Shown here in pieces: positions 3,628 to 62,765 of a stretch of 64,000 bases of DNA; the first letter of the stretch is position 1, and every line of letters begins with the position of its first letter. The DNA is from Candidatus Cottocaccamicrobium excrementipullorum (GTDB lineage Bacteria > Bacillota > Clostridia > Lachnospirales > Lachnospiraceae). Made by a program: the position numbers and the translations under genes. Under the pieces are notes generated by a model. It saw only the letters and a list, made by a program, of their open reading frames with translations. It had not been told where the DNA came from and made no database searches. Location: assembly GCA_018713255.1 (NCBI GenBank), contig DVFL01000041.1:1-64000 (forward strand), in the 5' to 3' direction.

Positions 3628-4656
3628 CTAATGCCGGGTTCCAGCCGGCCCTCCTGCTGGTCTTCCCTTTAACAGCTGCCGGACAAAATCCCCCAGCTCT
3701 CCCCACAAAAGCTGATCCAGATAATTCTGCCTTCCTCCGAAACTGCTGTGATAAGGAAGGCGTACCTTCTGGATCCGTTCCAGCAGCTCTCCATGTCCAG
3801 AAACCTGAACATACTCCTCAAACTCTTCAACCTTGGCGGCAGAAATCCAATCCTGCTTAACCGGCATGTAAATTCCCTGACAAATTTCCAGGATAGGAAG
3901 AACCTTCCGTCCAAATTGTCCCGCATCCACAATGATTACCTGGTACATCCCTTCCCCGCCGATCTTCAGCAGAAGCTCAGCCATCTCCTCTCCGCTAATC
4001 TGGCATAAGTCCTCAGGATAGCGAACCGGCAGAATATAATCCAGATCATCCCAACTGTAAACTAAAGATTTCAGTCTCGCCCAGTTCAGTCCGCCCTGCT
4101 GGGTGTAATAATACAGCACATCAGAAAAGTCACCTGGGCCCTGCTGATCCATAATCCGGCGCATGCCTGAGCAATCTTCAAAATTCAGGTAAAGTACTCG
4201 TTCCTCTTTTCCCAAAATCTGTCCCATGGTCAAGGCAAAGGAGGTTTTCAGACAACGGTTTACCGGAGAATATACCCCAAGAATCCTGGCAGAAGCTGAA
4301 GAGATCTTCCCCTGAGGACTAAGGGGGCTAGCTCCATAACAAGCCATCACCTCCCGAATAATGTGGTCGGCAGACTGGTACTTATATACGCTGGGACCTT
4401 CCTCTGGACTCTGGACCATTTCTCCATCAGATAAAAGGACAACCTGTCCTGCACCGATCTCCCTGGCTTCATCGGCGGCGCCCACATCTACCAGGAGAAG
4501 TTCGATGGGATTCTCCTGAGCAAAACGCCTAAGCCGTTCCATGCTGGTAAATGCCATCACCGTAAAGGGCATTTTCTCTTTCTGATTCGCTGCTTCTGCA
4601 AACCGTTCTGCAAAAAAAGGATCCACATCATAAACCGCCATCACTCTCTTTTTCAT
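3628..4656 (-). CDS. TadZ/CpaE-like pilus localisation ATPase
   Basis: By family knowledge this is a ParA/MinD-related protein that positions the Tad machine at the membrane. The N-terminal part resembles an atypical receiver domain (AVYDVDPFFAERF and ELLLVDVG). The C-terminal half resembles the MinD-like fold (VLYLNFEDCSG, YQVIIVDAGQFG). The Walker A is degenerate: GVYSPVNRCLKTSFAL stands where a canonical GKGGxGKT would be, so nucleotide use may be weak. I chose the ATG at 4656 because AGGAGG lies 12 nt upstream. An in-frame ATG at 4680 is equally possible and would add 8 residues. It is the first gene after the hairpin repeat, which separates it from the prepilin peptidase. Confidence 0.75.
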   Translation of the reverse strand: MKKRVMAVYDVDPFFAERFAEAANQKEKMPFTVMAFTSMERLRRFAQENPIELLLVDVGAADEAREIGAGQVVLLSDGEMVQSPEEGPSVYKYQSADHIIREVMACYGASPLSPQGKISSASARILGVYSPVNRCLKTSFALTMGQILGKEERVLYLNFEDCSGMRRIMDQQGPGDFSDVLYYYTQQGGLNWARLKSLVYSWDDLDYILPVRYPEDLCQISGEEMAELLLKIGGEGMYQVIIVDAGQFGRKVLPILEICQGIYMPVKQDWISAAKVEEFEEYVQVSGHGELLERIQKVRLPYHSSFGGRQNYLDQLLWGELGDFVRQLLKGRPAGGPAGTRH

Positions 4657-4692
4657 CCAGTATTCTGCCCTCCTGTTCATTCATCTCTTCCC

Positions 4693-4720: not shown

Positions 4721-4748
4721 TTATCGCCCAAAAGACCATTTCCATAAT

Positions 4749-4838
4749 ATGAAGTTGGGGTCAAAAGGTCTTTTGCCCCCTATGATACCGGCTTGTTCCG
4801 TGCTTCGCACTCCCACAAGCCTCAAAAACATTCATAAT
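4749..4838 (-). repeat. Hairpin-rich dispersed repeat, copy A
   Basis: This 90-bp sequence is nearly identical to 60210-60298. Read on the minus strand it can fold as an outer closing pair ATGAA/TTCAT, a first hairpin with arms GGCTTGT/ACAAGCC enclosing GTGC-gaa-GCAC, and a second hairpin GGGG-g-CAAAA-gacc-TTTTG-a-CCCC. The 8-bp direct repeat CATAATAT flanks it (4743-4750 and 4833-4840). Deleting the element and one repeat restores a longer prepilin peptidase frame. This points to a small non-autonomous mobile element of MITE or REP type. No transposase is encoded. Confidence 0.8.
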
Positions 4839-5374
4839 ATAAAACACCATCCCCCCTTCCACAAAACACAGACTGCCAGCCCCCAAAAAAGACAAAACAC
4901 CAGAGGGATCACCCCTTCTTTCCCCTCCTTCTCGGGACTGTGATATGCCATTAATTGCTTTAAGTGAATTGTCTGCCGAATATAGGCAGCCAGACGGCAA
5001 AGCCGATCTCCCAGACTTTTTCTAACCACCAGGCGAAAAAGAGACCAGAATGCCCCGATGACCATTCCCGCGCCAATTACCTGAACACCGGAACCAAAAC
5101 CAAGATACCCGCAGATCAGCGCCATACATTTAATATCTGCTGCGCCCATCATGCGGCAAAGAAATAATAGAAAGAACACGCTTACGGTAACAGCAATCCG
5201 AACCAAATATCCCGCCGCCGCAAGCCAGCCACTGTAAATAAAGTAAACAAGTCCTGCTGTAAACCAAAAGGCCAGCCATAAATTGGGAATCCGCCCGGCA
5301 CATAAGTCCCAAATACCTCCTGCAGCCAGGCAAATCACCATGCCGCACACCAACGGCACTTCAACATTTTCCAT
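4832..5374 (-). CDS. tadV: Prepilin peptidase (TadV/CpaA type)
   Basis: This polytopic inner-membrane aspartic peptidase removes the leader of Flp-type pilins. The two catalytic Asp motifs of the family are visible: DLCAGRIPN near residue 23, and GAADIK (the family GxGD-type box) near residue 78. They are spread over about six hydrophobic helices in 180 residues. It is the first gene of the Tad operon on this strand. The ATG at 5374 follows TAAGGAAT. Its last codons, ATA TTA TGA, come from the inserted hairpin repeat. Without the insert the frame would continue as WKWSFGR before a stop, so a short cytoplasmic tail has been lost. Confidence 0.85.
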   Translation of the reverse strand: MENVEVPLVCGMVICLAAGGIWDLCAGRIPNLWLAFWFTAGLVYFIYSGWLAAAGYLVRIAVTVSVFFLLFLCRMMGAADIKCMALICGYLGFGSGVQVIGAGMVIGAFWSLFRLVVRKSLGDRLCRLAAYIRQTIHLKQLMAYHSPEKEGKEGVIPLVFCLFWGLAVCVLWKGGWCFIL

Positions 5375-14682: not shown

Positions 14683-14843
14683 GTCATGAGTTCTTTATCT
14701 GTTCTTATTCTTCCCTAAACATTCCCCGGCATTCGTGTTCCGGTGTACACCGGTGCTATCACACAAAAACAGCTAACAGCAAATTTTAAATAAAAAAAGC
14801 GCCGACCCCACAGCTCTCCGTCTGCAAAATCAGCACTTCCCAG

Positions 14844-14916
14844 TGCGCCTTCAGGGACTCGAACCCTGGACAAATAGATTAAGAGTCTACTGCTCTACCA
14901 ACTGAGCTAAAGGCGC
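14844..14916 (-). tRNA. tRNA-Lys (anticodon CTT)
   Basis: This is a 73-nt cloverleaf. The acceptor stem is GCGCCTT/AAGGCGC with discriminator A. The D arm is AGCTCAGTTGGTAGAGC, the anticodon loop CTCTTAA reads CTT, and the T loop is GGTTCGAGTCC. CCA is not encoded. It is identical to the second copy 194 bp away. Confidence 0.95.
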
Positions 14917-15063
14917 TTATTTCATTATTTTCTTTTCCTGAGGACTTGAATCATTATAATGCCTTGTGGAGAAATTGTCAATCGTTTTTTTAGGGTTTTT
15001 TTCGATTTTTTTAAGGATTTGTTTATTTCTGTCAGCTGCGCAGCAGGCTGTCAGGATTCAAGT

Positions 15064-15105: not shown

Positions 15106-15109
15106 TTAG

Positions 15110-15182
15110 TGCGCCTTCAGGGACTCGAACCCTGGACAAATAGATTAAGAGTCTACTGCTCTACCAACTGAGCTAAAGGCGC
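15110..15182 (-). tRNA. tRNA-Lys (anticodon CTT), second copy
   Basis: The 73 nt are identical to 14844-14916, with the same CTT anticodon in loop CTCTTAA and no encoded CCA. The two copies are in the same orientation, separated by a terminator, so each probably has its own promoter. A TTGACA-like box is not obvious upstream. Confidence 0.95.
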
Positions 15183-15256
15183 TTGTTCTCAATGGAACGT
15201 ACACTATTTTACAACACGATTCAGAAAAAATCAAGTCCTTTTTTAATTTTTTTGCA

Positions 15257-59956: not shown

Positions 59957-60209
59957 AGAATCACCTCTGCTTTCTCTGTGTTTCGGATTCAGCAAACCAC
60001 TGCAAATGGTCAATTCTCAGCTTTAGAAATCTTCCGCCAAGTATCTTTGGTGATTATACAATATATATATTCAAAATACTAGTAAAATTTTTATGATATC
60101 AAGGTCAAAAGGTCGGAATTCCCATGCAAGCTTGCCTGCAAAAGGATTTTCGATCTTGGGCCCCGCCAAAAACATGAATAAGCAGCCATTTTCACAGAAA
60201 AATGAGCGG

Positions 60210-60298
60210 ATTATGAATGTTTTTGAGGCTTGTGGGAGTGCGAAGCACGGAACAAGCCGGTATCATAGGGGCAAAAAACCTTTTGATCCCAACTTCAT
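60210..60298 (+). repeat. Hairpin-rich dispersed repeat, copy B
   Basis: An 89-bp sequence nearly identical to the complement of 4749-4838. The GGCTTGT/ACAAGCC stem with GTGC-gaa-GCAC inside is unchanged. The second hairpin (GCAAAA-aacc-TTTTG) has small differences. It lies between the divergent start of DUF3881 and the end of gdhA, opposite in direction to both, and does not interrupt a gene. The flanks show no clear 8-bp duplication. The preceding 60105-60190 stretch has another small GGTCAAAAGGTC motif, of unknown origin. Confidence 0.8.
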
Positions 60299-60388
60299 TT
60301 TTATTACATAAGTTGGAACATTCATATAGATTTGCCATATTTTTCTTCTGCCTTTTAGAACAAGCCTGTTTTAGGGGAGAGAATCTCA

Positions 60389-62398: not shown

Positions 62399-62414
62399 TT
62401 TACTCTATCAGTCC

Positions 62415-62765
62415 GGCGCATGACGGTTTACTTTGACCACCCGCCGCCGACTAGGCGGCATCAATTCAGGGATTCCAAATGCGCCGCCAGACTTTTTCGG
62501 ATTGGATAAAGACCTGACCGCCGGCGCATGACGGTTTACTCTGACCACCCGCCGCCGATTAGGCGGCATCAATTCAGGGATTCCAAATGCGCCGCCAGAC
62601 TTTTTCGGATTGGATGGCACCCTGACCGCCGGCGCATGTTGGTTTACTCTGACCACCCGCCGCCGACTAGGCGGCATCAATTCAGGGATTCCAAATGCGC
62701 CGCCAGACTTTTTCGGATTGGATGAAGACCTGACCGCCGGCGCATGTTGGTTTGTTTTGATCCAC
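62415..62765. repeat. 108-bp tandem repeat, three full units plus a partial one
   Basis: Units start at 62415, 62523 and 62631 with a partial fourth at 62739, exactly 108 bp apart. Each holds a GC-rich inner palindrome GCCGCC-gacta-GGCGGC. On the minus strand the units read as a 36-residue repeat (SGGAFGIPELMPP), open for 120 codons from a GTG directly after the DUF4446 stop, but with no ribosome binding site. Most differences between copies would change amino acids, so I treat it as a minisatellite-like repeat and not a gene. Confidence 0.85.

Follow-up and report, generated by a model that had tools for sequence, protein, structure and literature searches.

A MITE-like structured element that includes the Clostridiales-1 (RF01699) RNA family, with a probable remnant at the 3' terminus of a prepilin peptidase gene

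MITEs are short elements, under a few hundred bp in length, and the hairpin class comprising IS200/IS605 and REP sequences is not known to leave a target duplication. Among the bacterial representatives, QMITE2 of Coxiella burnetii is given, in the part of a review available to us (PMC10969869), as having direct repeats of 7-9 bp, terminal inverted repeats of 23-29 bp and a core of 113-145 bp. The bcr1-bcr3 repeats of the Bacillus cereus group are characterized in the excerpts at hand (PMC3446304) as interspersed and MITE-like, and as being often located in UTRs or in the intergenic regions of operons. Clostridiales-1, according to the accessible sections of its source, was put forward as an RNA candidate in Clostridiales and the human gut (Weinberg et al. 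2010, PMC2864571). No description of this family as mobile was found in the literature that we searched, which took in few subscription papers and no supplements. Based on comparisons of its copies, we classify the family, filed in Rfam as the sRNA RF01699 “Clostridiales-1”, as the core of a mobile unit of approximately 180-205 bp. This unit is similar to bacterial MITEs such as QMITE2 in its size, inverted ends, duplication length and predicted folded transcript, as far as the portion of PMC10969869 consulted describes them; it differs from bacterial MITEs in that its parent IS was not found here and in that an internal arm displays compensatory change. To the bcr1-bcr3 repeats, likewise by the excerpts cited, it is comparable in being MITE-like and occurring in operons, a likeness of description rather than of sequence or target, and the host group differs. 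Folded transcripts together with duplications of 7-9 bp are already on record for MITEs in the parts of these sources seen, and what is new here is the reclassification of the RF01699 family as part of a transposable element. On this reading an Rfam entry by which small RNAs are annotated in gut Clostridia would belong to an element that has both defined ends and a preferred target, its copy counts would measure transposition rather than RNA genes, and its conserved pairing would allow selection on the folded form of a DNA element to be tested.

The first of the copies considered here, copy A, lies near the start of the window, by which we mean the whole stretch of 64,000 nucleotides analyzed, in a locus with the following features:

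4751 to 4833, a probable 83-bp remnant of the Clostridiales-1 element (copy A), with the RNA sense of RF01699 on the minus strand, i.e. in the direction of the operon; recognized from DNA copies and a partial RF01699 match
4744 to 4750, the most likely left target-site duplication of copy A, ATAATAT (ATNNNAT type); the same form flanks full copies
4834 to 4840, the most likely right target-site duplication of copy A, ATAATAT; its first five bases are also element-internal sequence (CATTC-ATAAT-CCGC in full copies)
4751 to 4770, plus strand, the surviving terminal inverted repeat of copy A, GAAGTTGGGGTCAAAAGGTC, recognized by comparison of inverted ends
4757 to 4779, minus strand, a terminal hairpin, GGGG(T)CAAAAG..CTTTTG.CCCC, from alignment and fold; it lies outside the Rfam model
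4790 to 4821, minus strand, a hairpin arm, GGCTTGT..GTGC GAA GCAC..ACAAGCC, with compensatory changes among homologues
4832 to 5374, minus strand, the prepilin peptidase gene (Peptidase_A24), ending CFIL-TGA at the element junction, from a family match and comparison with relatives
3628 to 4680, minus strand, the next operon gene as listed; judging from relatives, its start is probably nearer 4656 (ATGAAAAAGAG)

Copy A is a real repeat and not a chance occurrence. The window contains three matches to the inverted end, compared with none in 100 shuffles, and a search of its own genome with copy A recovered seven matches, namely copy A itself, four other long copies with 94-97% identity and two end fragments. 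Nine matches to RF01699 were found in the same genome, among which copy A is the second weakest, scoring 31 bits over model positions 124-157 only and falling under the gathering score of 48. The hairpin fold of copy A has a z of -5.0 as DNA and of -2.9 as RNA.

A preliminary description of this locus had reported an 8-bp direct repeat around the element, and CATAATAT is indeed present twice, at 4743-4750 and 4833-4840. While the repeat itself stands, its length as a target duplication is best revised: the eighth base (C) is also the last base of the element, ATNNNAT is the commonest form around full copies, and the duplication is most likely the 7-bp ATAATAT. The element had also been given as 90 bp long, which does not hold, as copy A constitutes 83 bp of the approximately 180-205 bp unit and has kept only one of its two inverted ends; the 90 bp correspond to the insert (83 + 7), a multiple of three. 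As had been proposed, in silico excision of these 90 bp restores an open frame in which the peptidase runs to ...GGWCFILWKWSFGR-TAA (CFILWKWSFGR-TAA), followed by AGGAGG, and the present stop codon, the TGA of ...CFIL-TGA, is supplied by the element in that it arises at the junction. The uninterrupted frame is weak evidence when taken alone, because eight codons would be open by chance about two-thirds of the time (an arithmetic estimate). One could suppose that the flanking repeat of copy A is itself due to chance, a truncated repeat being there for other reasons, and five bases of the right duplication are in fact also element sequence and so not independent; nevertheless, the left flank would still have to match at 7-8 bases, with a probability estimated from composition to be of the order of 1e-4, and it has the target form typical of the Clostridiales-1 element, which makes such a coincidence very improbable.

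According to the preliminary description, no other trace of recent mobility in the window is as clear as copy A. We would not retain this ranking, because a full copy elsewhere in the window (copy B) keeps both ends and an exact 8-bp duplication:

60095 to 60296, plus strand, copy B, a full element of 202 bp with both inverted ends, from an RF01699 match and comparison of ends
60087 to 60094, left target-site duplication of copy B, ATTTTTAT, 8 bp
60297 to 60304, right target-site duplication of copy B, ATTTTTAT, 8 bp

The RF01699 match of copy B spans 60094-60265 with 127 bits, and the copy shares with most of the matches listed the coverage of model positions 1-166 and the hairpin arms of the Rfam family. 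The mobile unit, however, extends past the model by approximately 35 nt, from GATACCAGGGTCAAAAGGTC to CCTTTTGACCCCAACATC, to reach a second inverted end, and its behaviour is that of a transposable element. It opens with the inverted end GATACCAGGGTCAAAAGGTC, continues through two structured arms and a third arm that forms a hairpin, and closes with the second inverted end, which folds as GGGGTCAAAAGG..CTTTTGACCCC and terminates in AACATC. The inverted ends of full copies are approximately 20 bp long (GATACCAGGGTCAAAAGG versus GATGTTGGGGTCAAAAGG), and the longer copies run on past the right end of copy A as CATTC-ATAAT-CCGCTC... toward the second of them. We counted as full elements those of 150-260 bp in which at least 14 of 20 positions of the left end were like the consensus and the right end had at most five mismatches, taking identical element sequences once and leaving aside more degraded and tandem copies. 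This yielded 67 full elements with distinct sequence; at lengths of 182-256 bp, none could accommodate a transposase gene.

Variants at both extremes of length were also observed. Six elements of 243-256 bp (L175, L183, L193, L208, L259 and L270) have an extra block of about 50 bp with the look of a hairpin in the third arm, perhaps a second, nested element. Miniatures of 36-37 bp that amount to the two inverted ends alone are found in the genome of the window, one near position 1494 of C39 (L007), with an exact duplication ATATCAT, and another near position 1490 of C3 (L006), without one. Two other repeated features of the window are a repeat in three overlapping copies at 62413-62760, with a spacing of 108 bp and 93% alike, and a near-identical pair of tRNA genes at 14842-14921 and 15108-15187, 266 bp apart.

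The flanks of the full elements provide the main body of evidence for mobility. Exact duplications flank 44 of the 67 (36 of 7 bp and eight of 8 bp), compared with 64 of 4422 in a control with mispaired flanks; the 23 elements without an exact 7-8 bp repeat comprise 13 with one mismatch and ten with more. A second count found the outer 7-8 bp flank repeated inward at 56 of 113 inverted ends, the control 7-mer being so repeated at five of 113. These figures bear out the preliminary description, which had made duplications around other copies a check on its proposal. The duplication is truly one of 7-8 bp, and not of 3 bp inside an element bounded by ATGA..TCAT, because 11 of the 44 repeats do not both begin and end with AT. 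Within the genus, 31 elements comprise 17 with exact 7-bp, three with exact 8-bp and 11 with imperfect duplications, and the base counts in the 17 seven-base repeats (A16 T16 N N N A17 T17) show ATNNNAT to be the commonest target form. With its small palindromic hairpins and lack of any gene inside, the element could be likened to hairpins of the IS200/IS605 or REP type, which a tyrosine transposase mobilizes; the exact 7-8 bp duplications at the 44 full elements nonetheless refute this identity, unless they were made by something other than insertion, and we consider it hardly credible.

An empty site was recovered from a pair of genomes, G004 and G007, which are 95.2% identical over the peptidase locus. 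The joined flanks of a 183-bp copy in G004 (L129) are continuous in G007 (220 bp at 98%), where ATAGTAT occurs once at the junction, and the filled site has ATAATAT plus ATA-TAT. This was the one clean empty site among the five G004 copies whose joined flanks were sought in G007: the flanks of L054 matched at 85% with a scrambled junction, those of L035 matched as separate halves, and L047 and L128 had no match. In the reverse comparison of one G007 copy (L053) against G004, the element sequence was matched and the flanks were not. At another site with shared flanks, the full copy present in G007 (L037) is represented in G004 by a remnant of 30 bp (L119). The insertion points are also unevenly placed with respect to genes: among the 56 of the 67 full elements that have 600-bp flanks, 17 lie within an ORF of at least 120 aa, whereas random points drawn from these flanks do so in 982 of 1120 cases, an avoidance to which selection after insertion may have contributed as much as the AT-rich target.

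Taken in full, the family displays shortness without a transposase gene, inverted ends, a target duplication and presence or absence at an orthologous site (in one of five comparisons one way and none of one the other). On the strength of its ends, its duplications and the one empty site, rather than of a known mobiliser, we hold the repeat to be a MITE-like mobile structured element. The preliminary proposal that a structured, transposase-less repeat entered the operon with a target duplication is in agreement with this, most of the full copies examined having duplications of the same kind and another copy an empty site.

The conservation of pairing was examined in an alignment of 55 sequences (copy A and 54 arms), which was made by sequence, the structure being read from it by eye; 13 elements were set aside, eight being listed as overlong or lacking the motif and five having the same arm as another sequence. 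The 21 pairs of the three helices are formed in 95.5% of the 1136 cells. Changes on both sides of a pair occur at 11 pairs, in 81 cells, relative to a mean of 17.4 in shuffles and 2-12 with the partner slid, figures to be read in light of the fact that sequence kinship can inflate the shuffle test and that deriving the structure from the consensus biases the comparison toward the unslid version. By this comparison pairing is maintained in the internal arm as well as at the end. The compensatory changes in the internal arm, which go beyond what recognition of the ends alone would call for, are not explained by a simple MITE. It is conceivable, if rather doubtful, that the element combines the roles of transposon and functional RNA, with its arms under selection and its transcript aiding spread or shielding the host gene.

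The same pairing, the typing of RF01699 as an sRNA in Rfam and the “y n n” that its entry carries in the part of Weinberg et al. 2010 available (PMC2864571) would also suit a family that is primarily a gene for a functional small RNA, propagated by duplication, its flanking repeats being incidental AT-rich sequence. This view has to contend with the excess of exact flank repeats over the mispaired control, with the second inverted end beyond the Rfam model, with the empty site, and with a patchy presence across the order, where RF01699 occurs in 25 of 146 genomes (18 over the cut-off, own genome included, under stricter filters). We therefore disfavour it and regard it as quite improbable.

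For copy A in particular, we propose as the probable origin that it is the remnant of a non-autonomous, MITE-like Clostridiales-1 element, inserted in full at ATAATAT and later reduced by a slippage loss of about 120 bp. In this scheme, in which we infer both the agent and the order of events, a transposase encoded elsewhere would cut an AT-rich target, preferably ATNNNAT, with a stagger of 7 or 8 bp, and the element would insert so as to leave the target duplicated. A full copy would have entered ATAATAT within the last codons of the peptidase gene, at an empty site predicted to read TTTTATATTATGGAAATGG, whereupon the last residues of the peptidase would have been replaced by a TGA composed of the target TTAT and GA of the element. 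The same TGA would arise from an insertion of full length, the other end of which starts with GATACC next to the target TTAT. Approximately 120 bp would then have been lost via slippage between two occurrences of TCATAAT, one internal and the other made up of the terminal TC and the duplication, and the remnant would place two stable hairpins between two genes of the same direction. The slippage step can be modeled by placing a 97%-identical sister copy (L002) in full at ATAATAT, whereupon the two TCATAAT lie 121 bp apart: the model deletion yields copy A except for one substitution and one single-base gap. Furthermore, the breakpoint of copy A is the only one of 165 with a 7-bp homology, the next best having 4. 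The left end of copy A has the canonical form and the right end does not; the latter corresponds to an internal position of full copies and sits at this sole 7-bp homology, a combination which suggests that the missing stretch was most likely lost after insertion.

Alternatively, copy A could have been inserted short, with the transposase acting on one proper inverted end and on a cryptic one inside the element (..TC), or as a pre-existing short form, with no later deletion. Three short copies from three genomes, L069 (73 bp, ATTACAT), L126 (approximately 70 bp, ATGACAT) and L138 (ATCCTCTT), are flanked by duplications and break off in the same arm, and by eye they end in TC if read with a 7- or 8-bp duplication. 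As they carry duplications and show little homology at their ends (judged by eye), insertion of a short form is a live rival, which we consider unlikely: the end points of the three copies differ, so that they are not one short element; truncated copies without a right duplication exist (L086 and L125, by eye); and an insertion of this kind would leave the position of the end of copy A, at the one 7-bp homology, to be accounted for.

The consequences for the operon appear to be modest, namely a changed peptidase tail and two hairpins between genes, any effect of which on expression would be conjectural; a terminator scan placed none of its six sites within copy A. Across nine same-genus relatives, none of which exceeds 74% DNA identity, the peptidase adjoins the same downstream gene and the element is absent. 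The preliminary description would have been undermined by relatives that end the peptidase at the same residue, and none of the nine does so. Counted by eye, the peptidase tails past the conserved CLF-G range from about 8 to 16 residues in the relatives, with no common end, and measure 14 residues in the present gene against 21 in its putative ancestor. Since the tails of the relatives vary, they cannot confirm the loss of the WKWSFGR tail, which is unproven; the tail is probably dispensable, and copy A probably does little more than alter it. The sequence AAAGGAGG after the predicted TAA is, when read by eye, unlike the ribosome site of the next gene. In seven of the nine relatives a GGAGG stands directly 5' of the CTGGATGA start farther downstream, and the window has the same arrangement (also read by eye).

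At least ten of the 11 genomes of the genus have RF01699 and nine of the 11 have copy-A DNA, and RF01699 was found in none of 14 control genomes. The exact 20-base end occurs in at least 120 stretches of GTDB genomes; the 80 with listed titles belong to Lachnospiraceae, Blautia, Muricomes, Hungatella, Eubacterium, other Clostridia or unnamed bacteria. For 24 of the 81 exact ends in these 80 stretches, a partner end with an exact duplication lies no more than 350 bp away, and no duplication-bearing pair was detected farther apart. Across the orphan ends, the exact-end stretches and the PF01609 and PF00872 loci examined, no transposase with the ends of the element was found. The hunt for orphan ends took in 20 stretches, comprising 19 inverted ends without a nearby RF01699 match among the matches listed and one three-copy contig; a partner end with a matching flank was sought at 13 of the 20, the best candidates agreeing at 9-11 of 20 bases and none being convincing. 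Three solo ends (L231, L156 and L222), when read, proved to be fragments or rearranged copies in which no transposase was noticed, with ORFs listed for L231 only. The 35 transposase loci of the genus (20 with PF01609 and 15 with PF00872) had no matching ends. A plasmid search gave no match to the element, and the exact end was not found in the viral contigs searched, a set that may omit records close to the genome of the window. Among human faecal phage records, eight entries named “Bacteriophage sp.” and lacking annotation (MT835871, MT837057 and a further six) match the element, one of them over 84% of the query. Finally, RF01699 matches lie head to tail approximately 150-180 bp apart in G046, G108, G040 and G003, which suggests tandem copies.
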